From a virus, in IMG/VR virus record IMGVR_UViG_3300031521_000214, positions 1 through 35,262 of that record: a stretch of DNA of 35,262 nt. One strand, 5' to 3'. This document shows, piece by piece, positions 1,938 through 14,441 of the stretch. The notes under the pieces are model-generated. The model saw nothing but the letters and a program-made list of their open reading frames with translations. It did no database searches and was not told the origin of the DNA. A program made the position numbers and the translations under genes. The first letter of the stretch is position 1; each line of letters opens with the position of its first letter.

Positions 1938-4481
1938 TTAGAATGAGTCATTTGTTAATGCTCCTGAGTATCTACCACCATTATTATCACGATTCATTTG
2001 GTTACCAATAATTCTAGTTAATTCTCTTACAAACTGTTGATCTTTAACAAGTTCAGATGCTGAAATTTTAGTTGACGAATTACCACCAATTAATGAAATA
2101 CTTCCTTGAATATTATGTGCAATGTTACCACTCATTGAATTATTACCACCACCTGAAGAAGATCTTCCTTGTGCTACACCACCATATGTTTTATTTACAT
2201 CTGGATTTGATGATAATACACCTGCTTGTGCTCCTGAAGCTTTTGCAAATAATAAACTACCAACATCACCAATATTAGATAATGGGTCACTATTCTTATT
2301 TACTCCAATATTATTAGAACCAAGTACATTTGCAATTGCCCCACCAGGCTTCATAGCAAAAACATCATCTTTACTATTCAACATGATAGGACTACCACCA
2401 CCGCTAGGTATAACCATATCATTAGCTTTTGTTGGAGTTCCAAATCTATTACCAATAATTCCACCAGCAGCAGCCCCAAGGCCAGCCCCAATATAAGCTC
2501 CAGGTATAATTCCAGCTGGGCCTAATGTTAAACCACCTAGAATACCACCACCTACACCACCAATAGCACCACCTATACCAGCACCTTTGATTGTTGGGAG
2601 AGCTCTACTTTGACCACTTGAACTACCAGCATCACCTAATAATTGTTTTAAAGGTGGTAAAATTACTTTAGTAAAATCTCCGATTAAACTTATCAACTCA
2701 GGCATTAAAGTTTGAACTAAAGCATTAAAACCATTTCTAACAATATCACTAATACCTAATGTATTTTCAGCTATAGATCTCATGTTAGTAGTATCTTCTT
2801 TTGGTTGTAATTTATCAATATCATCAGGCGTTAATGATGTTACTAATTTATTTTTACCACCAACAGTTATTTTAAATTTTTTAGTTGCAGTATCAAATTC
2901 AGATAATGAAGCGATTAAATCTCTAGTCTCTGGGCTTGTATTCTTAATAGTTGGAGTTATACCGAAAGTACCTTCAATTGCTGTTCTCTTACCTTTAAGC
3001 CTTGTACTTTGCATCATTTCATCAAAGTTAACGCCCATAGCTTCAGCAGCAGCTTTAACTCTCAACCTATCATAACCATTTATTGTTACTTCACCAGTTT
3101 CTTTATTTATGTTAGTTACACCATCAAGCATTTTACTATATGTTTTAGTTAAACCTTCCATATCAGTAATACCTTCTGTTAATAATTTCATTGGATCAGC
3201 CATTTGAGCAAATGACCCACCTAATACTTGTAATTTAGAAGCTGTTTCAATAGCACCCTCTGGTGATGAAACTTTATCAGCTAATGAAGCGATAGTTGAC
3301 ATATTTATTTTTAACTTTTCAGAATAAACAGTCATGTCTGCTACACCTTTCAATCCGTTTTTAAATGTATATGAGTTACCAATTTTTAAATTCTCTAATA
3401 ATTTAGCTGTCATAACACTACTAGACATACCACTTTTTTTAGAATTAGTAACTAAATCTTGAACTTGTTCCGTTGCTGTCTTAGCATTTAACCCAAACAT
3501 TTCCATGTTAGCAGCCATTTTAGCAGCCCCCTCAACACCAAGTCCAGTTGCGACAGCCATATTACTAAGAGATTCTAATCCATCAGCATTTAACATTACA
3601 GATCTACCAAGTTCATCAGTATATGTTCCTTGTAATTTAACTAAGTCTTCAGTTTTAACACCTAAAAATGCGGTATTAAGTGACGCAGCCATTATATTTT
3701 GCTTTAATACACCTGATTCATCTCTTGTTAAAGCATAATTAGCAGATAATTTAGACATTATTGAATCTTGTTCAAAAGCACTACTAATTGTTGTTTTTAT
3801 AAACCCTAATACACTTTCAGATGCTTTATTAGCAAGATTTTTAGTGGTATTTAAAACAGCATTTCGCCTATCTTCACTTTTAGTTCTTTCCTTTTCGGCT
3901 TTATCCTCAGATTGTTTTCTAGTTTTATATTGATCAGTTAATTTATCTGTTTCGGTTTTTAAATTTTTAATTTTCAAATTATGAGCATCTTTTTCAGTAT
4001 TACTCATATTCTTAGTATCTTTTTTTTGCAATTCTAGAAGCTTAACATAACTTTCAGTCTGTTTAAGTTTTATCTTTTCTAAAGCGTTTATTCTTTGTTG
4101 TTGTTGTAGATATATTTTTTGATTACCAGTCGCTTTTTTACTTGATACCCCAAGTTTTTTTTCAGCTTCTAGTTTATCATTTGCTAATTTAGTTGCTTTA
4201 GTTTCAACTTTTATACTCTCTCTAATTGCTTTATTTCTGGCATCTTCTAATTCAAGATTTTTCTTAATAATTTTTTGCATAGCAGTCTCAAGCTTCAATA
4301 AAGCTTCAGCACTATCTCTCTTTTTTTTATCGTTTTTAGTGTCGTAAGAATTATTGGGAGTATTTTTATTTTGAGACGTGTTAGTATTTTTAAAACCACC
4401 TTTACCAGTACCCATAACTTTTATTAAGTTATTAATACTTTTAATTAAGTCTTGTCCTGTTTTATCTTCCATTGATGCCAT
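1938..4481 (-). CDS. Tail tape measure protein
   Basis: This 847-residue protein would fix tail length and fill the tube lumen until DNA ejection. Residues 1-55 are polar and Asn/Lys-rich. Residues about 56-210 are a highly charged Lys/Glu-rich coiled coil. The middle (about 220-560) is helical with repeated Ala/Met/Leu segments. Residues about 628-680 are a Gly/Ala-rich hydrophobic stretch (GAGIGGAIGGVGGG and onwards), typical of tape-measure membrane-active segments. The tail is low-complexity Ser/Gly/Asn. At roughly 1.5 angstrom per helical residue the length would fit a tail a little over 100 nm (T4 gp29 has about 590 residues). It follows the gp26-like tail assembly genes and leads its own unit: a TATTTATATTAAAA box lies just before the ATG, after a terminator. 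Sequence identity to a named family was not recognised; the call rests on architecture and position. Confidence 0.8.
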   Translation of the reverse strand: MASMEDKTGQDLIKSINNLIKVMGTGKGGFKNTNTSQNKNTPNNSYDTKNDKKKRDSAEALLKLETAMQKIIKKNLELEDARNKAIRESIKVETKATKLANDKLEAEKKLGVSSKKATGNQKIYLQQQQRINALEKIKLKQTESYVKLLELQKKDTKNMSNTEKDAHNLKIKNLKTETDKLTDQYKTRKQSEDKAEKERTKSEDRRNAVLNTTKNLANKASESVLGFIKTTISSAFEQDSIMSKLSANYALTRDESGVLKQNIMAASLNTAFLGVKTEDLVKLQGTYTDELGRSVMLNADGLESLSNMAVATGLGVEGAAKMAANMEMFGLNAKTATEQVQDLVTNSKKSGMSSSVMTAKLLENLKIGNSYTFKNGLKGVADMTVYSEKLKINMSTIASLADKVSSPEGAIETASKLQVLGGSFAQMADPMKLLTEGITDMEGLTKTYSKMLDGVTNINKETGEVTINGYDRLRVKAAAEAMGVNFDEMMQSTRLKGKRTAIEGTFGITPTIKNTSPETRDLIASLSEFDTATKKFKITVGGKNKLVTSLTPDDIDKLQPKEDTTNMRSIAENTLGISDIVRNGFNALVQTLMPELISLIGDFTKVILPPLKQLLGDAGSSSGQSRALPTIKGAGIGGAIGGVGGGILGGLTLGPAGIIPGAYIGAGLGAAAGGIIGNRFGTPTKANDMVIPSGGGSPIMLNSKDDVFAMKPGGAIANVLGSNNIGVNKNSDPLSNIGDVGSLLFAKASGAQAGVLSSNPDVNKTYGGVAQGRSSSGGGNNSMSGNIAHNIQGSISLIGGNSSTKISASELVKDQQFVRELTRIIGNQMNRDNNGGRYSGALTNDSF

Positions 4482-4587: not shown

Positions 4588-5433
4588 TTATTTTTTAAAA
4601 ATGTTACCACCTTTAATACTATTAAACAGATTATAAGAAGCTCCAACCCCTAGTGACCAACCAAATCTAGATCCTTTTCCATTTAAATCAGTGTTCAACC
4701 CAAAACCAACATAAGGCCCGAAAGACCATGGGTTTGATTTAGTAATTGTTGATTGTGGAAATTTATCAAGAATTAGAGCACCATTCAATTCAGTAAATTG
4801 GACTAATTTAGAAGGTGATGTTGCTTGTACTATGTATTTACCATTTTCTTCTCTAAAACCATAATTTAATTTAATGTTAAATTTATTAGTATCTAAAATT
4901 GAAATTGGAAAACTTGGTTTATTATTTAATATTTTAAATTTGGTATTACCAATTAACGTTTGTGTTATTCCAGGGTCATTATAATTAAAATTCCATGGAA
5001 TAGTAAATCTAGAACTATCATTTTTATCTGGAATTACCTCATTTATTTTTGACGTTAATTCTGGGATAATAGTACTAACACTACTTTGTATACCAGCTAC
5101 TGAATTTTTCATATTTTTAATATCAGTATATAATCCAGCGTTTAATAATTTAAGATCATCAACTGATTTAACAATATAACTAGTTTTTTCACCAATAACA
5201 ATATTTAATTTTTTATCAAACCTATTTGTTAACGTATCAGTCATAGCTTTAATATTGTTTTCATTTAATTTGTTATCAATAACATGTTGTTTCTTCTCAA
5301 TAGATAGTTTATTACAACTATTAATATTGAAAATTACCAATAGAATTATAATAACACCTAATGTTAGTCCAATATATTCTTTACTGAAGATTGTTTTAAT
5401 GAAACTTAAAACGGTATTTAAAATTTGTGTCAT
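4588..5433 (-). CDS. Membrane-anchored coiled-coil protein of unknown function
   Basis: This 281-residue protein has one hydrophobic segment at about residues 20-38 (IGLTLGVIIILLVIFNI), followed by Cys40 in an INSC context. The context is only loosely lipobox-like, so an uncleaved membrane anchor is more likely. Residues about 45-125 look like a heteropolymeric coiled coil or stalk. The rest is beta-rich and ends with alternating aromatic/Gly strands (GPYVGFGLNTDLNGKG, then GWSLGVGASYNLF) like outer-membrane beta hairpins. It sits between the tail assembly chaperone-like genes and the tape measure and ends at its own terminator, so it is probably expressed late. An envelope-spanning lysis (spanin-like) role is one possibility suggested by the anchor plus periplasmic layout, but there is no diagnostic motif. 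I do not recognise the family. Confidence 0.65.
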   Translation of the reverse strand: MTQILNTVLSFIKTIFSKEYIGLTLGVIIILLVIFNINSCNKLSIEKKQHVIDNKLNENNIKAMTDTLTNRFDKKLNIVIGEKTSYIVKSVDDLKLLNAGLYTDIKNMKNSVAGIQSSVSTIIPELTSKINEVIPDKNDSSRFTIPWNFNYNDPGITQTLIGNTKFKILNNKPSFPISILDTNKFNIKLNYGFREENGKYIVQATSPSKLVQFTELNGALILDKFPQSTITKSNPWSFGPYVGFGLNTDLNGKGSRFGWSLGVGASYNLFNSIKGGNIFKK

Positions 5434-5441
5434 AACGATAT

Positions 5442-5744
5442 TTATTTTTTATTTTTATTTTTTAGAGATCTTTGTCTAGCCTTCTCATTCTGCTCACTAA
5501 TATATTCATTATGCTTATGAATATGTATTTTTCTTAGATAAGTTGGCATATGTTTAAGAGTTTTATAGTCAAGACCAACAAATTTTTCACAATTCCAAAG
5601 TTCATCCCACAAGTATTTTTTAAAATCAGGTGATATGGAGGAAAATAGTAGAGTCGAGTTCAAGAAAGGTATCAAAAGAGCCACCTCCGAGACTCTCAGG
5701 GCGTTCAATAGTTGTTTTAAAATCAACGCCAGGTGTATTCTCAT
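5442..5744 (-). CDS. Frame-shifted C-terminal extension of the gp26-like tail assembly gene
   Basis: This 100-codon open frame overlaps the last 119 bases of the gp26-like gene in the frame reached by +1 or -2 slippage. Its first roughly 35 codons (from the ATG at 5744) look like read-through of another coding frame. From about 5640 onward it becomes protein-like: PDFKKYLWDELWNCEKF, a second helical stretch, then a Lys/Arg-rich tail ending KNKNKK. That suggests it is translated mainly as an extension of the upstream protein by ribosomal frameshifting, like lambda G/GT or the reported -2 shift in phage Mu, both placed just before the tape measure. The alternative is independent initiation at 5744 by translational coupling, giving a separate small protein comparable in position to T4 gp51. 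The sequence alone does not settle which. Confidence 0.6.
   Translation of the reverse strand: MRIHLALILKQLLNALRVSEVALLIPFLNSTLLFSSISPDFKKYLWDELWNCEKFVGLDYKTLKHMPTYLRKIHIHKHNEYISEQNEKARQRSLKNKNKK
5626..5700 (-). other. Candidate programmed frameshift region (+1 or -2)
   Basis: Within the frame overlap the minus strand is unusually GC-rich for this genome. It contains GGAGGT at 5688-5683, a small stem around GAGAGTCTC (near 5697-5689), and several possible slip sites. ATTTTC at 5646-5641 would let tRNA-Phe move from TTC to TTT by -2 with full re-pairing. TTTC at 5667-5664 allows +1 from TTT to TTC. ACC TGA at 5631-5626 could allow +1 at a slow stop codon. The -2 option preserves most of the natural-looking upstream protein (to LELDSTIF) and joins it to SSISPDFKKYLW. 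The mechanism is inference. Confidence 0.45.
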
Positions 5745-6768
5745 TAATATGTTTTCTTAATGCCAATGAATCTGATACTGGCATAATAGATACGTATTTT
5801 TTTATGAAATTTCTATCACTATTACCATTAATTGAAACAATACTTCTTTCTAATAGGAAAGTTACATTTTTCAAATATTGGTTATCATTTTTATCATCAA
5901 TAACTTTTAAATATTCGTTCAAAAATTCAATTGATTGAACTAGATTTAATTTTAATTTACTATCAAGGCTATTTTCACTATTAATAATATCAGTAATACT
6001 ATTAACGCTATTTTTAACTGCTAATTTCTTAAAATTAGGGTTTATTTTTTCTAATAACTTAGTATAATTCACCTCATCCTTATGTGTTAAAAATCTAAAT
6101 TTAACAATATGTTTAGATTTCGGCAATTCATAATCAAAATAACCATCAATATCTGGGACTAAATTAAAATCTTTAACTTGTAATAAAGATAAATCAATTT
6201 CATAGTCGAAGCTTTCACCACTTGCTGGATCTTTAACCATTAATGGGAATTTAGCGCCATATCCAGTTGCTCTTAACCAAACAATAATTGCATCTCTATC
6301 ACCTTTACATAAATTTTCAGGTTTAATACTTGTGTCTAATATTTTTTTCCTTAACAATAAGTCAATAATTTTACCATCTAAATATAAATTTGGTGAAGTT
6401 ATTAAATCTTCATCAGACGCTGTTAAATACGCAACTGGTATTTTACTTTTTATATTTTTATATATTAAACCTTTAGATGGTAATGGTACTAAGTCATGTG
6501 GTATATCAAAATCATCAATGATACATAAATCATCATTATCAGTTTCATCATCATAATTTACTTCGTAGTTCTCTTCTTTATAAACTTTAACAGATTCTTT
6601 TTTAGGTGTACTTTGTTTTGGAGCTGTATCATCACCACCGTTTATTACTTGTTTAAGTAATCCAACGCTAGAGTCTTGTTTGTGCTCAATAGCTTCATTA
6701 AGTAAATCTTCGATAAATTTATCTTGATTTTTTTTTAAATTTTCAATTTTTCTTTGATCTTGTTCCAT
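5626..6768 (-). CDS. gp26-like baseplate/tail assembly protein (tape-measure chaperone candidate)
   Basis: This 380-residue protein has an N-terminal helical, acidic extension (about 1-90) and a core matching the T4 gp26 family layout. LPSKGLIY is at 96-103, TASDEDLI at 116-123, and GDRDAIIVWLRATGYG at 156-171, followed by a beta segment and a helical C-terminal half. T4 gp26 is shorter (about 208 residues). In contractile phages this family acts in baseplate hub and tape-measure assembly in the host cytoplasm. It starts 4 bases after the stop of the preceding small gene, so the two are co-translated. Its last codons overlap a second open frame, and the gene ends at a TGA just where the second frame becomes protein-like. 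The position between tube and tape measure matches that of frameshifted tail assembly chaperones. Family assignment is fairly secure; the chaperone role is inference. Confidence 0.75.
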   Translation of the reverse strand: MEQDQRKIENLKKNQDKFIEDLLNEAIEHKQDSSVGLLKQVINGGDDTAPKQSTPKKESVKVYKEENYEVNYDDETDNDDLCIIDDFDIPHDLVPLPSKGLIYKNIKSKIPVAYLTASDEDLITSPNLYLDGKIIDLLLRKKILDTSIKPENLCKGDRDAIIVWLRATGYGAKFPLMVKDPASGESFDYEIDLSLLQVKDFNLVPDIDGYFDYELPKSKHIVKFRFLTHKDEVNYTKLLEKINPNFKKLAVKNSVNSITDIINSENSLDSKLKLNLVQSIEFLNEYLKVIDDKNDNQYLKNVTFLLERSIVSINGNSDRNFIKKYVSIMPVSDSLALRKHINENTPGVDFKTTIERPESLGGGSFDTFLELDSTIFLHIT

Positions 6769-7394: not shown

Positions 7395-7907
7395 TTATAT
7401 TTTTTTAGAAAAAAAGCTACCATTTTTTTTTGATTCTCTTAATAATAAAACTTCGTTTTGTAATTTAAGTCTTTGATTAATAAATTCAATAATTCCATTT
7501 GAATCGCCATAAATGTCTTTTTCCCAAAATCGGATTAACACGTAGTTATTCAAAGAGGCCCATTTATTTTTTAATTCATCAACTCTTTTATTTCTTTTTT
7601 GAGTTATTGTAAGGTTTGTGGTATATATTTCAGGGTTGGAATGGTAGAAGTCACCATCACATTCAATTAAAACTCTATATTTTGGTAAGTAAAAATCATA
7701 AAATCGCCCAATAGGGTGTGCTTCAAATTGTTGATCATACTCAACACCTAATTTATCCAATATATTAACTCTAAAATAAGTCTCAAGACCAGACCCATCT
7801 AAATCTGACGCATTCCTACTTTTAACAAATGTTTTTTTCTTTTTGAATACCTTATTTTTTTTAGGTTTTACATGGGTAGTTGTTTTAGTTTTAGTTGGTT
7901 GTTTCAT
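7395..7907 (-). CDS. Vsr/DUF559-like PD-(D/E)XK endonuclease, possible homing endonuclease
   Basis: This 170-residue protein starts with a very basic leader (residues 1-32, Lys/Thr-rich) followed by a compact nuclease fold. Glu42 lies in the first helix (SGLETYFRVNIL). Asp71 is in FYDFYLPKYRVL, and Glu82, Asp84 and His89 are in IECDGDFYHS. Then come a Lys/Arg helix (ITQKRNKRVDELKN) and the strand YVLIRFWEKDI. This is the layout of DUF559/Vsr-type restriction-like nucleases, which include mismatch nickases and free-standing phage homing endonucleases. It interrupts the tail operon between tube and tail-assembly genes, just after a strong terminator and without a clear late box of its own. That fits an inserted selfish gene, though a DNA-repair or packaging role is not excluded. 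Fold assignment is good; biological role is inference. Confidence 0.75.
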   Translation of the reverse strand: MKQPTKTKTTTHVKPKKNKVFKKKKTFVKSRNASDLDGSGLETYFRVNILDKLGVEYDQQFEAHPIGRFYDFYLPKYRVLIECDGDFYHSNPEIYTTNLTITQKRNKRVDELKNKWASLNNYVLIRFWEKDIYGDSNGIIEFINQRLKLQNEVLLLRESKKNGSFFSKKI

Positions 7908-7988: not shown

Positions 7989-8477
7989 TTAGTAAACTAG
8001 TATTGCGTAATCATATTTTAGTGTGATTTCAGCAGTAGCAACATCATCACTATCATAACCTAAGTCACCAAAATTACCAGTAGTTGGGAATGCGTTTATT
8101 AGAACCCATTTTTGAACAGCAACACCAGTTGGATCTAACATTGATATAGTAATATTACGTTTATATCCAGCAGCATAACCTTGTCTACCTGTAACAGATT
8201 CACTTTCAAGTCTAATCCACTCCATAAGAGACTGAGCAGTTGATGGACCTATGAATTGTCTAAATGTAATTGTTAAATCCTCCCAAGTATATCTACCTAA
8301 AACCCAAGTTGAAGTATTTAAGAATTGTAATTCGGTTGCGTTTTGGTTGATTGAAGGTAAACTACTAGTAGATACCCACCAGCTTTGTATACCAGTATCA
8401 GCTGGGAATGAAAATAAGAACCTATTTTTTCTTAATGGCTCATATACTAAAGGAGCATTAAATAAAAGATTTGACAT
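7989..8477 (-). CDS. Tail tube protein, gp19-like
   Basis: At 162 residues the length is almost that of T4 gp19 (163). It shows the family pattern: an N-terminal RKNRFLFSFPADTG strand pair, the WWVSTSSLPSINQ loop, a WEDLTITFRQF strand, a helix around SLMEWIRLESES, and then KRNITISMLDPTGVAV, WVLINAFPTTGNFGDLGY and a closing strand AEITLKYDYAILVY. Stacked hexamers of this protein make the inner tube through which DNA passes. It is the second gene of a short unit led by the gene at 8491-8877 and closed by a terminator. The high expected expression fits its own promoter and terminator. Confidence 0.88.
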   Translation of the reverse strand: MSNLLFNAPLVYEPLRKNRFLFSFPADTGIQSWWVSTSSLPSINQNATELQFLNTSTWVLGRYTWEDLTITFRQFIGPSTAQSLMEWIRLESESVTGRQGYAAGYKRNITISMLDPTGVAVQKWVLINAFPTTGNFGDLGYDSDDVATAEITLKYDYAILVY

Positions 8478-12140: not shown

Positions 12141-14441
12141 TTATAGAGAGGTTAGTGTTATTTTTTTCCAAGTGTTAACTTCAACACATATATACATATA
12201 CGTATCATCATAACAAATATCCCCTTTATTACCTGAAGCGTTAGCACTAGTTGGTGTTTTAGATTTTGGAATATTAATTCTATTAGTATTAGCATCAACA
12301 CAAAAATTAAGTGTACCACCACTTAAAGGTACTGGAAAAGCCCCAACTGTTAACGTACATCCAACTAATGTTCCACTTACAATAACGTCAAATCCAGTAT
12401 CGCTAACACAATTATAGAAAGTACCAGTTAAACCACTAGGCCCACTACTAAAACTATTCCCAGTTCCAGTACAATTGTGAAATTTACCAGATAGATCACC
12501 ACTATATGAATTAAATGAACCATCACCACCAATACAATTATAAAATTTACCAGTTAAATGATTACCTACAAAAGTTGGATTATCACCAACGCAATTATCA
12601 AAAGTTCCAGTTAAATAAAAACCGCTAAACCCATGTGCCCCACCAGAACAATTATAAAATTCACCAGATAAATCGCCAGTGTCTTGGTCAGCATGAAAAC
12701 TATTACTTATTCCACTACAATTATAAAATTTACCAGTTAAATTTTTTGAATAAAAACTAGATGAACCACCATGACAATTTATAAATGTCCCAGATAAAGA
12801 TCCAACAATACCAGTAAATAATTCAGTTGTACGAATAATTGGTACACCACCATTACTCATATCGCAATAAATATCTTCAAAATGCCCAGTAAATCCACTA
12901 AATCCTTGAATAAACCCATTAGAAATTACTTTAATATTTTTAAAAGTCCCTGACAAAATCGTATTATTATTTGTATTATCACCCATTATTTGTCCTGAGC
13001 AATTTTCAATCCATAAATTTGGATGATTACCTAAAATAGATAAACCGCCATCGCTAAACCAAATACCATAAAGTTTAATGTTATCAGTATTAACAGTAAT
13101 TCCATAAAATCCAATTCTAACATCTAAACTACCAGTTGAAGATATTAAATTTATATATGGAGTATCTAATATAAATGGTGAATTTAAACCATAATACCCT
13201 GGATATATAATTATATTTACTTCATTTCCAGGAGACAAACTCATTGTTTTTGCAAGATTATAAGCGTTAACTAATTCTAATCCATTATCACCAGGATTTG
13301 AGTTAGATCCTTTAACAGTTATAAATTTATTACCAGTTGCAGGTGCAAAATCACCTGTTGAACCTGTTGATCCAGTTGGTAAACTTAATATTAAATCTTT
13401 TAATATTCTACCTTGAGCTGCATCTAAAGCACTGCCAGGTATTACAGTGTCTAGATTATTAACAGTTTCAAACCCATCGATTATATTAAAAAATATTCTT
13501 TTATTATCTTTTGGTGCTAAGTGAATAGGGTCATCACCAATTGGTCTTGTAACTACTAATTGTATATCTTCTCCACTTGCATATACCAGTTCAGTACTAC
13601 CACTATTAGTGTTAGAATCTAAATAATAATTACTATAATATTCATTAGTTTCATCATAACTAATTGGAAAATCACTATTAATTGGTGTACCATCATTGTA
13701 TTTAGTTGATGCAAAGTTTTGAAGTGACCATGTTTGCCCTGATAATTCAATTGATGTATAAATATTTCCATCAACATCTACAAATTCAGTTTCAAGATTA
13801 CCTTCATTTCTTATAAGTCTAATATTATTATAATAACGTCTAATATCAGTTTCAACATATAATGAATTATCAGTTGAGCTACAATAGACATTATAACCAG
13901 TATCTCCACTAAAAACATCATATTCACCACTAATATCACTACACCAATAATAACAATAACTCATAAATCCTGAAAAATTTATACTTGGATCATTATCAAG
14001 TGCTGGATATCCCATTCCACCACCATAAAGGTTCATTCCAGATAATTCATCTCCAGTTGTATCATTATCCCAGTGATTAGTTCCAGATTCTTTTAATCTA
14101 GCTCCAGCAGAACTTGCTGTTCCAAAATTATCAATTAACGTTTGCCATTCATTACTTGTTGGTACGTGCCAACCTTCTGGAGCTAAATTAGGGCTTGAGG
14201 CAGTATAACCATTATAATATCTACCATAATCAATTGGTTGACTAGTATAAGTAATAGTCCCACCAGTTTGAACTGACTCCCAAAGGCTTCCACCACCAGT
14301 TGATCCTGTACTTAAATGTGCTAGTTTTATTTTCTCTGCTCGTGTAAAAGCGAATTCATCATCATTTAAATTATCGTTTAAATGAGATGTGTTTAAGCCA
14401 CTTAAATTGGGCTTCAAATTTCTGTTAACTGTTATTTCCAT
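12141..14441 (-). CDS. Tail fibre/adhesin with FISUMP-like domain and beta-helix
   Basis: This 766-residue protein is built of modules. Residues 1-50 are an anchor shared almost identically with the split fibre at 16763. A GSTGGG linker follows. Residues about 70-212 hold the C-terminal half of a FISUMP (Fib_succ_major) domain (GWHVPT at 90-95, EW at 98-99, LKESGTNHW at 117-124). Residues 220-254 hold the usual N-terminal half (VDVDGNIY, then TKYNDGTPI), so the order is permuted. Then come a TGSTGSTG linker and a right-handed beta-helix (about 390-715) with rungs of the form L(T/S)G.F.NC.G. The end (about 722-766, KGDICYDDTYMYICVEVNTW) is the C-terminal motif common in phage fibres. It probably binds a host surface receptor. 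It is the last gene of the long operon before a terminator. Fibre assignment is strong; receptor unknown. Confidence 0.8.
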   Translation of the reverse strand: MEITVNRNLKPNLSGLNTSHLNDNLNDDEFAFTRAEKIKLAHLSTGSTGGGSLWESVQTGGTITYTSQPIDYGRYYNGYTASSPNLAPEGWHVPTSNEWQTLIDNFGTASSAGARLKESGTNHWDNDTTGDELSGMNLYGGGMGYPALDNDPSINFSGFMSYCYYWCSDISGEYDVFSGDTGYNVYCSSTDNSLYVETDIRRYYNNIRLIRNEGNLETEFVDVDGNIYTSIELSGQTWSLQNFASTKYNDGTPINSDFPISYDETNEYYSNYYLDSNTNSGSTELVYASGEDIQLVVTRPIGDDPIHLAPKDNKRIFFNIIDGFETVNNLDTVIPGSALDAAQGRILKDLILSLPTGSTGSTGDFAPATGNKFITVKGSNSNPGDNGLELVNAYNLAKTMSLSPGNEVNIIIYPGYYGLNSPFILDTPYINLISSTGSLDVRIGFYGITVNTDNIKLYGIWFSDGGLSILGNHPNLWIENCSGQIMGDNTNNNTILSGTFKNIKVISNGFIQGFSGFTGHFEDIYCDMSNGGVPIIRTTELFTGIVGSLSGTFINCHGGSSSFYSKNLTGKFYNCSGISNSFHADQDTGDLSGEFYNCSGGAHGFSGFYLTGTFDNCVGDNPTFVGNHLTGKFYNCIGGDGSFNSYSGDLSGKFHNCTGTGNSFSSGPSGLTGTFYNCVSDTGFDVIVSGTLVGCTLTVGAFPVPLSGGTLNFCVDANTNRINIPKSKTPTSANASGNKGDICYDDTYMYICVEVNTWKKITLTSL
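14293..14441 (-). repeat. Fibre anchor direct repeat, copy 1
   Basis: These 149 bases encode residues 1-50 of the FISUMP fibre and align with 16615-16763 with only scattered mismatches and no gaps. The encoded anchors differ at just two of 50 positions (Leu/Tyr at 9, His/Pro at 20). The repeat offers homology for recombination between fibre genes. Confidence 0.85.

Follow-up and report, generated by a model that had tools for sequence, protein, structure and literature searches.

Tail genes of the window and an overlapping second frame

The window, by which we mean the whole stretch of DNA analysed, spans 35,262 bases, a fragment of a T4-like phage with genes for a gp17-like terminase, a gp20-like portal, sheath and tube. 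The closest relatives found for it are ~35–42% identical, and single-protein IMG/VR searches with its gp26-like protein and with its sheath returned no close relatives. In gene order, the coding features considered here are:

7989..8477, minus strand: gp19-like tail tube protein, encoded upstream
5626..6768, minus strand: gp26-like gene, short form of 380 amino acids with PF12322 (T4_baseplate), assigned by Pfam, PHROG 150 and fold model
5442..5645, minus strand: +1-frame C-terminal extension of the predicted long form, ~65 codons plus stop, assigned by profile, residues and model
1938..4481, minus strand: probable tape measure protein of the tail (PHROG 167, E 4.5e-5), encoded downstream

The region from the tail tube gene to the tape measure gene also contains two unassigned ORFs and one endonuclease ORF. 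The endonuclease ORF (7395-7907, minus) is homing-endonuclease/DUF559-like and sits as an insertion in the tail module, past the tail tube gene and ahead of the gp26-like gene. The ORF at 4588-5433 (minus), which separates the extension from the tape measure gene, has a hydrophobic N-terminus, its family matches all being sub-threshold. A tail protein at 12141-14441 (minus) combines a Fib_succ_major domain (Pfam E 3e-21) with a weak phage fibre repeat.

The gp26-like protein scores 25.7 bits on PF12322 (curated cut-off 24.5), its RM378 homologue scores 37.6, and the Mel-JY01 gp26 homologue has no Pfam match. It also matches PHROG 150 (baseplate hub), and its fold model (pLDDT 83) has T4-like baseplate hub proteins as neighbours in BFVD, with E-values down to 6e-12 and Aeromonas phage 25 gp26 at 1.3e-4. 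Searches of the PDB were uninformative, by fold (VIA-align) yielding helical-hairpin matches only (Z ≤ 8, residues ~240-300) and by sequence no convincing match.

The gp26-like frame (6768-5626, minus) ends with TGA at 5628-5626. A second frame, in +1 (equivalently -2) relation to it, is open from 5756 to 5442 (minus), and its first ATG at 5744 gives a 119-base overlap; the stop, the overlap and the relation of the frames, reported in an earlier note on this DNA, were verified. That note had the second frame become protein-like only past the stop; protein-like it is, yet it becomes so slightly earlier, just ahead of the 0-frame stop, at ...SISPDFKKYL. A profile of the relatives' extension (see below), built without the window, matched the second frame with 22.2 bits (E 2.7e-6), the sole significant match among the window's 516 six-frame ORFs (next E 0.07), and the best of 5000 shuffles of the frame reached 13.2 bits. 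The invariant P and R of the MPxxLR motif are retained, the frame stays open for 61 codons beyond the gp26 stop, and the extension is modelled as three helices (pLDDT 90). Judged by these comparisons of sequence, the second frame is not a chance product and is homologous to the extension of the relatives.

The extension keeps its +1 relation across relatives

Distant gp26 homologues found by tblastn came from an uncultured jumbo phage, a Flavobacterium phage and a Microcystis phage, each with a similar second frame in +1 relation to gp26. A profile made from them retrieved 80 IMG/VR loci, to which later scans added ~160. At 239 loci with a complete 3' end, the extension (score > 15 bits) lies in the same +1 relation to gp26; among the IMG/VR relatives of this group, none had it in the -1 or 0 frame. 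The last residues of the gp26 frame read ...FFWP(x1-4)stop, and the first of the extension ...FFGL.P.YK. This conservation strongly supports the proposal of the earlier note that a frameshifted tail chaperone gene ahead of the tape measure yields a short form and one extended by ~60 residues. The note called a -2 or +1 event unusual; in this lineage the +1/-2 relation is the rule.

Relatives were gathered by protein patterns distant from the shift site, so that the site statistics below are unbiased by the search. In the dereplicated set no two loci exceed 85% identity around the site; the loci nevertheless share ancestry, and z-scores treat them as independent. Among 133 dereplicated relatives, 46 have no ATG, GTG or TTG between the point at which the +1 frame opens and extension codon 12, 108 have no ATG in this interval, and in 27 the +1 frame opens at most three codons ahead of the site. 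In many relatives the two coding blocks must therefore join during translation, and by homology in the rest. A standalone second ORF with a conserved start was sought in the +1 lineage and none was found. Two isolates, immuto and Mel-JY01 (L003 and L004), are annotated with two separate genes and no marked frameshift, the immuto annotation placing the start of the second part inside the extension domain. For Flavobacterium phage immuto, the +1 junction peptide would read ...GVSFFGLTPEYR.

A nearly invariant site that fits a +1 slip

The shift site of the +1 lineage is nearly invariant, NNV TTT TTT TGG CCT. Of 186 unique sites, 150 read TTT TTT TGG at the junction, 12 read TTT TTT TAC or TAT, and nine each read TTT CTT TGG and TTC TTT TGG; TTT CTA TTC, TTT TTA TGG and TTT TTT TTC occur once, and the diverged sites of SP-15 and GXN1, read by eye, are TTT TTT CAC and TTC TTT CGT. 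When codon-anticodon pairing was scored, the P-site tRNA re-paired perfectly one base forward at all 183 scored non-window sites. Perfect -2 re-pairing, as in the shifts reported for Mu and arteriviruses, is lost in 20 of the 183 (variants TTT CTT, TTC TTT, TTT CTA and TTT TTA), and these 20 retain +1 pairing; we therefore take +1 as the rule in the lineage, for which a -2 slip is not supported, the window itself having the -2 pairing.

Codon choice at the site points to the position of the slip and to its direction. The second Phe codon is TTC in none of 133 relatives, with ~26 expected to end in C, and the first is TTC in seven, which marks the second as the usual P-site codon; the TTT CTA and TTT TTA sites require the first codon in this role. 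The A-site codon is TGG or TAC, and the stop follows one to four codons past CCT. The codon preceding the T-run ends in T in only one of 133 relatives (58 expected from own-gene codon use, z -12.6), and this exception sits before TTC TTT, where no -1 heptamer forms. The bias is an avoidance of the -1 heptamer T TTT TTT. G/C-ending codons are, moreover, enriched just ahead of the relatives' site, where a single frame is read. Taken from codon statistics, selection appears to act on the bases at the site, beyond the protein.

An upstream hairpin in a subset of relatives

Short-loop hairpins of 6–8 bp ending 2–5 nt upstream of the run occur in 38% of relatives, compared with 14% in controls in which synonymous codons were permuted within alignment columns (z 6.7). 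The Shine-Dalgarno duplex of bacterial prfB (release factor 2) sits at a similar position. We infer that the relatives' hairpin stimulates the +1 slip, for which it would need to fit the ribosome exit channel. A prfB-type site was considered for the lineage and rejected: there is no Shine-Dalgarno excess at the prfB spacing (-14 to -9), only an excess of G-rich sequence spread broadly over -37 to -20, and the A-site codon is a sense codon, as given above. Downstream of the site, we found no RNAalifold consensus structure in the relatives, and the mean z was weak.

The slip site of the window has diverged

Three features bear on slippage in the window itself:

5638..5646, minus strand: canonical shift position, ATT TTC CTC in place of TTT TTT TGG
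5662..5670, minus strand: alternative upstream slip candidate ACC TTT CTT (tRNA-Phe from UUU to UUC, +1)
5682..5735, minus strand: GC-rich three-way RNA junction predicted ahead of both candidate sites, suggestive only

The canonical position was placed by extension-profile alignment, in which ACT ATT TTC CTC CAT ATC ACC TGA of the window is colinear with AAG TTT TTT TGG CCT AAC CTA TGA of relative L011. The window is the only one of the 186 sites without a Phe run, and, unlike the lineage, its codon ahead of the site ends in T (ACT). At ATT TTC CTC, +1 re-pairing involves at least one mismatch, whereas tRNA-Phe re-pairs perfectly after a -2 slip, as the earlier note had pointed out for the ATTTTC tract (5646-5641); perfect +1 re-pairing is found solely at the upstream ACC TTT C (5670-5664). 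Without the T-run, the slip of the window may be +1 or -2. A slip at the stop codon itself is disfavoured, because S-P in the +1 frame before the stop aligns with T-P of the relatives. Two further observations of the earlier note held. Unusual GC-rich codons are present, nine of the last 22 codons ending in C or G (3.6 expected, z 3.2), and GGAGGT does lie in the overlap (5688-5683); it encodes a GGGS stretch common to L011 and may therefore serve the protein rather than ribosome-binding stimulation.

The slip in the window would thus be displaced or altered: a weak +1 at ATT TTC CTC, a +1 at ACC TTT C, or a -2 at ATTTTC. A +1 slip at the canonical place would give LELDSTIFSISPDFK or LELDSTISSISPDFK. 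It is possible, although somewhat unlikely, that the +1 shift has relocated 21 bases upstream to ACC TTT C TTG (5670-5662), after structured RNA, giving the predicted product DTFLNSTLLFSSISPDFK with the fusion segment SFDTFLNSTLLFSSISPDFK. There, UUU-to-UUC re-pairing is perfect, the codon ahead does not end in T, as at the relatives' TTT CTT sites (this codon pair is the slip site of nine relatives), the +1 frame is open from ACC TTT C onward, and the last modelled strand (364-368) finishes at the TTT codon. The three-way junction, the strongest predicted RNA structure of the gene and its lowest-energy 60-nt stretch (-17.5 kcal/mol, z about -1.7 to -2), ends ~14 nt upstream; it is not conserved in relatives. 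Against this placement, L130 and similar relatives carry ACC TTT CTT at the corresponding place but slip at the downstream T-run, the codon bias at the upstream site is weak, and the product from there to SISPDF is unlike anything in relatives.

We regard as unlikely a -2 slip in the window, in which tRNA-Phe on TTC (5643-5641) would re-pair on TTT two bases back, giving LELDSTIFSSISPDFKK with the predicted fusion segment LELDSTIFSSISPDFK. It is the only option with perfect re-pairing at the canonical position and has precedents in phage Mu and arteriviruses (PMC5009743), but the relatives all keep +1-compatible sites, including the 20 variants without perfect -2 pairing, and perfect -2 pairing at ATTTTC is not much of a surprise if this tract is what is left of the ancestral T-run, as it may be. 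The -2 slip that the earlier note allowed for thus finds no support in the lineage, where the variants fit +1 alone, and is still compatible with the diverged tract of the window.

That the site has decayed and the extension is no longer expressed, or that the site is an assembly error, is improbable. Much of the window's core differs from TTTTTTTGG, and the window has no lineage-type hairpin adjacent to its site; on the other hand, the frame open for 61 codons past the stop, the kept P and R and the helical fold argue for continued selection on the extension, and several scattered substitutions are atypical of assembly error.

Relatives that shift backward, and the two proteins of T4

In Kyanoviridae-type relatives, a homologous extension lies in the -1 frame, and the site NNT TTT TTC, a classic -1 heptamer, is present in 72 of 72 dereplicated loci. 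These cyanophage-type chaperones thus share with the +1 lineage the place of the shift, the Phe-Phe codon pair at the 3' end of gp26; they differ in reading T TTT TTC with the extension in the -1 frame, whereas the +1 lineage has a non-T before the run and a T after it. Poly-T -1 signals in T4-like chaperone genes are described in PMC12846349, citing Vladimirov 2022.

Two Ackermannviridae loci (L096 and L099; Taipeivirus and Kuttervirus) keep an extension-like ORF in the -1 frame, with gp26 ending ATT TTC ATT TAA and no canonical -1 heptamer. The jumbo phage LR756511 (L009) has an extension-like domain in -1 relation, and the end of its gp26-like ORF is not Phe-Phe. In the -1-type phages phiN3, YB07, D481 and YC (L093, L094, L097 and L100), a -1-frame ATG sits across the gp26 stop, which makes coupled re-initiation possible there, instead of or besides frameshifting.

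Two members of PF12322, the same N-terminal family, occur in T4 itself: gp26 (208 aa) and gp51 (249 aa), encoded by oppositely oriented genes. The -1-group extension pairs with the C-terminal tail of gp51 on one side (hhalign 94.9%, E 4.8e-8) and with the +1 extension on the other (88%, E 3e-6); when the +1 domain was compared with gp51 directly by profile, the match was not significant, so that the link passes through the -1 group. T4, with two paralogous genes where the +1 lineage has one gene with a frame change, apparently makes its short and long forms from duplicated genes. Both proteins are listed as hub assembly chaperones, gp51 being essential and of unknown function (PMC3004832).

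Independent translation of the second frame as a small gene, from ATG 5744 or a GTG/TTG, is very improbable: the window does have start codons upstream in that frame, isolates are annotated with separate small ORFs and ATG overlaps the gp26 stop in some -1-type phages, but we rejected a standalone gene on the start-codon evidence of the relatives (46 of 133 without any such codon before the conserved domain, 108 without ATG), and, in addition, the T-run and the avoidance of T ahead of it serve no purpose in separate initiation, and T4 gp51 has the extension domain covalently fused to a gp26-type domain.

A probable tail assembly chaperone pair from one gene

We consider it highly likely, on the strength of the comparative sequence evidence, that a single gene at this locus of a T4-like phage encodes both members of a tail (hub) assembly chaperone pair, by a +1 shift in the lineage. 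Frame conservation, motif, direction preference, codon bias and hairpin excess were all computed here. In the mechanism that they suggest, most ribosomes would stop at TGA 5628 and release the 380-aa gp26-like short form, while a minority would shift to +1 just before this stop and add a three-helix extension of ~65 residues, so that the long form, resembling gp51, would measure ~441 aa. Within the lineage, the P-site tRNA-Phe (or Leu), as a rule on codon two of TTT TTT TGG, would slip one base forward and re-pair, often beside a 6–8 bp RNA hairpin ending 2–5 nt upstream. Shifting itself, its rate and the role of the hairpin are read from these sequence patterns.

The use of the Phe-Phe pair for a -1 shift in cyanophage-type relatives, together with the gp51 domain, leads us to regard the gp26 short and long forms, by homology, as a lambda G/GT-type chaperone pair. 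In lambda, gpG and its frameshift-extended form gpGT come from one gene just ahead of the tape measure, the extended form being the minor product (PMC5009743). The likeness concerns the two forms and their position, and lambda uses -1 where the T4-like lineage is in +1 relation at TTT TTT TGG. Forward shifts in phage tail or structural genes have parallels in the chaperone of the haloarchaeal myovirus HSTV-2, very likely +1 and likened here by description, and in Listeria phage PSA, whose CCC_UGA includes a stop codon (PMC5009743) whereas in the T4-like lineage a sense codon comes after the Phe-Phe run. With prfB the lineage would share re-pairing of the P-site tRNA one base forward and, in some relatives, an RNA duplex close upstream; prfB relies on a Shine-Dalgarno duplex and an A-site stop, whereas in the lineage some members have an intramolecular hairpin and the A site holds no stop codon.

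With somewhat less than even confidence, we suggest that one ancestral Phe-Phe pair is a two-way switch, T_TTT_TTC giving -1 in the cyanophage-type phages and V_TTT_TTT_T giving +1 in the other large branch. The +1 slip would be pushed from close behind the ribosome by an intramolecular hairpin, in place of a Shine-Dalgarno duplex; T4 would have swapped the switch for the gp26/gp51 gene duplication, and the window would have moved to another slip, upstream +1 or -2.

Vladimirov, Gautam and Davidson reportedly described in 2022 that T4-like phages possess tail assembly chaperones. T4-like chaperones and -1 shifting had thus already been reported, and the +1 form, its motif and the 5' hairpin appear to be new: we found no literature account of them, what Vladimirov 2022 says on +1 lying outside the literature covered. 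A 2016 review of frameshifting treats T4 as an exception to the conserved frameshifting of tail chaperones (PMC5009743), and a 2024 tool paper states that forward shifts lack any known general motif (PMC10885494). The +1 T4-like branch, a large and mostly uncultured group of viruses of bacteria, would supply such a motif, common to hundreds of phages, while relatives shift backward on the same two codons, so that the direction of slippage may be reducible to a test of one or two bases. Gp26 plus the extension equalling gp51 would, finally, offer a simple reading of two long-puzzling hub assembly proteins of T4.
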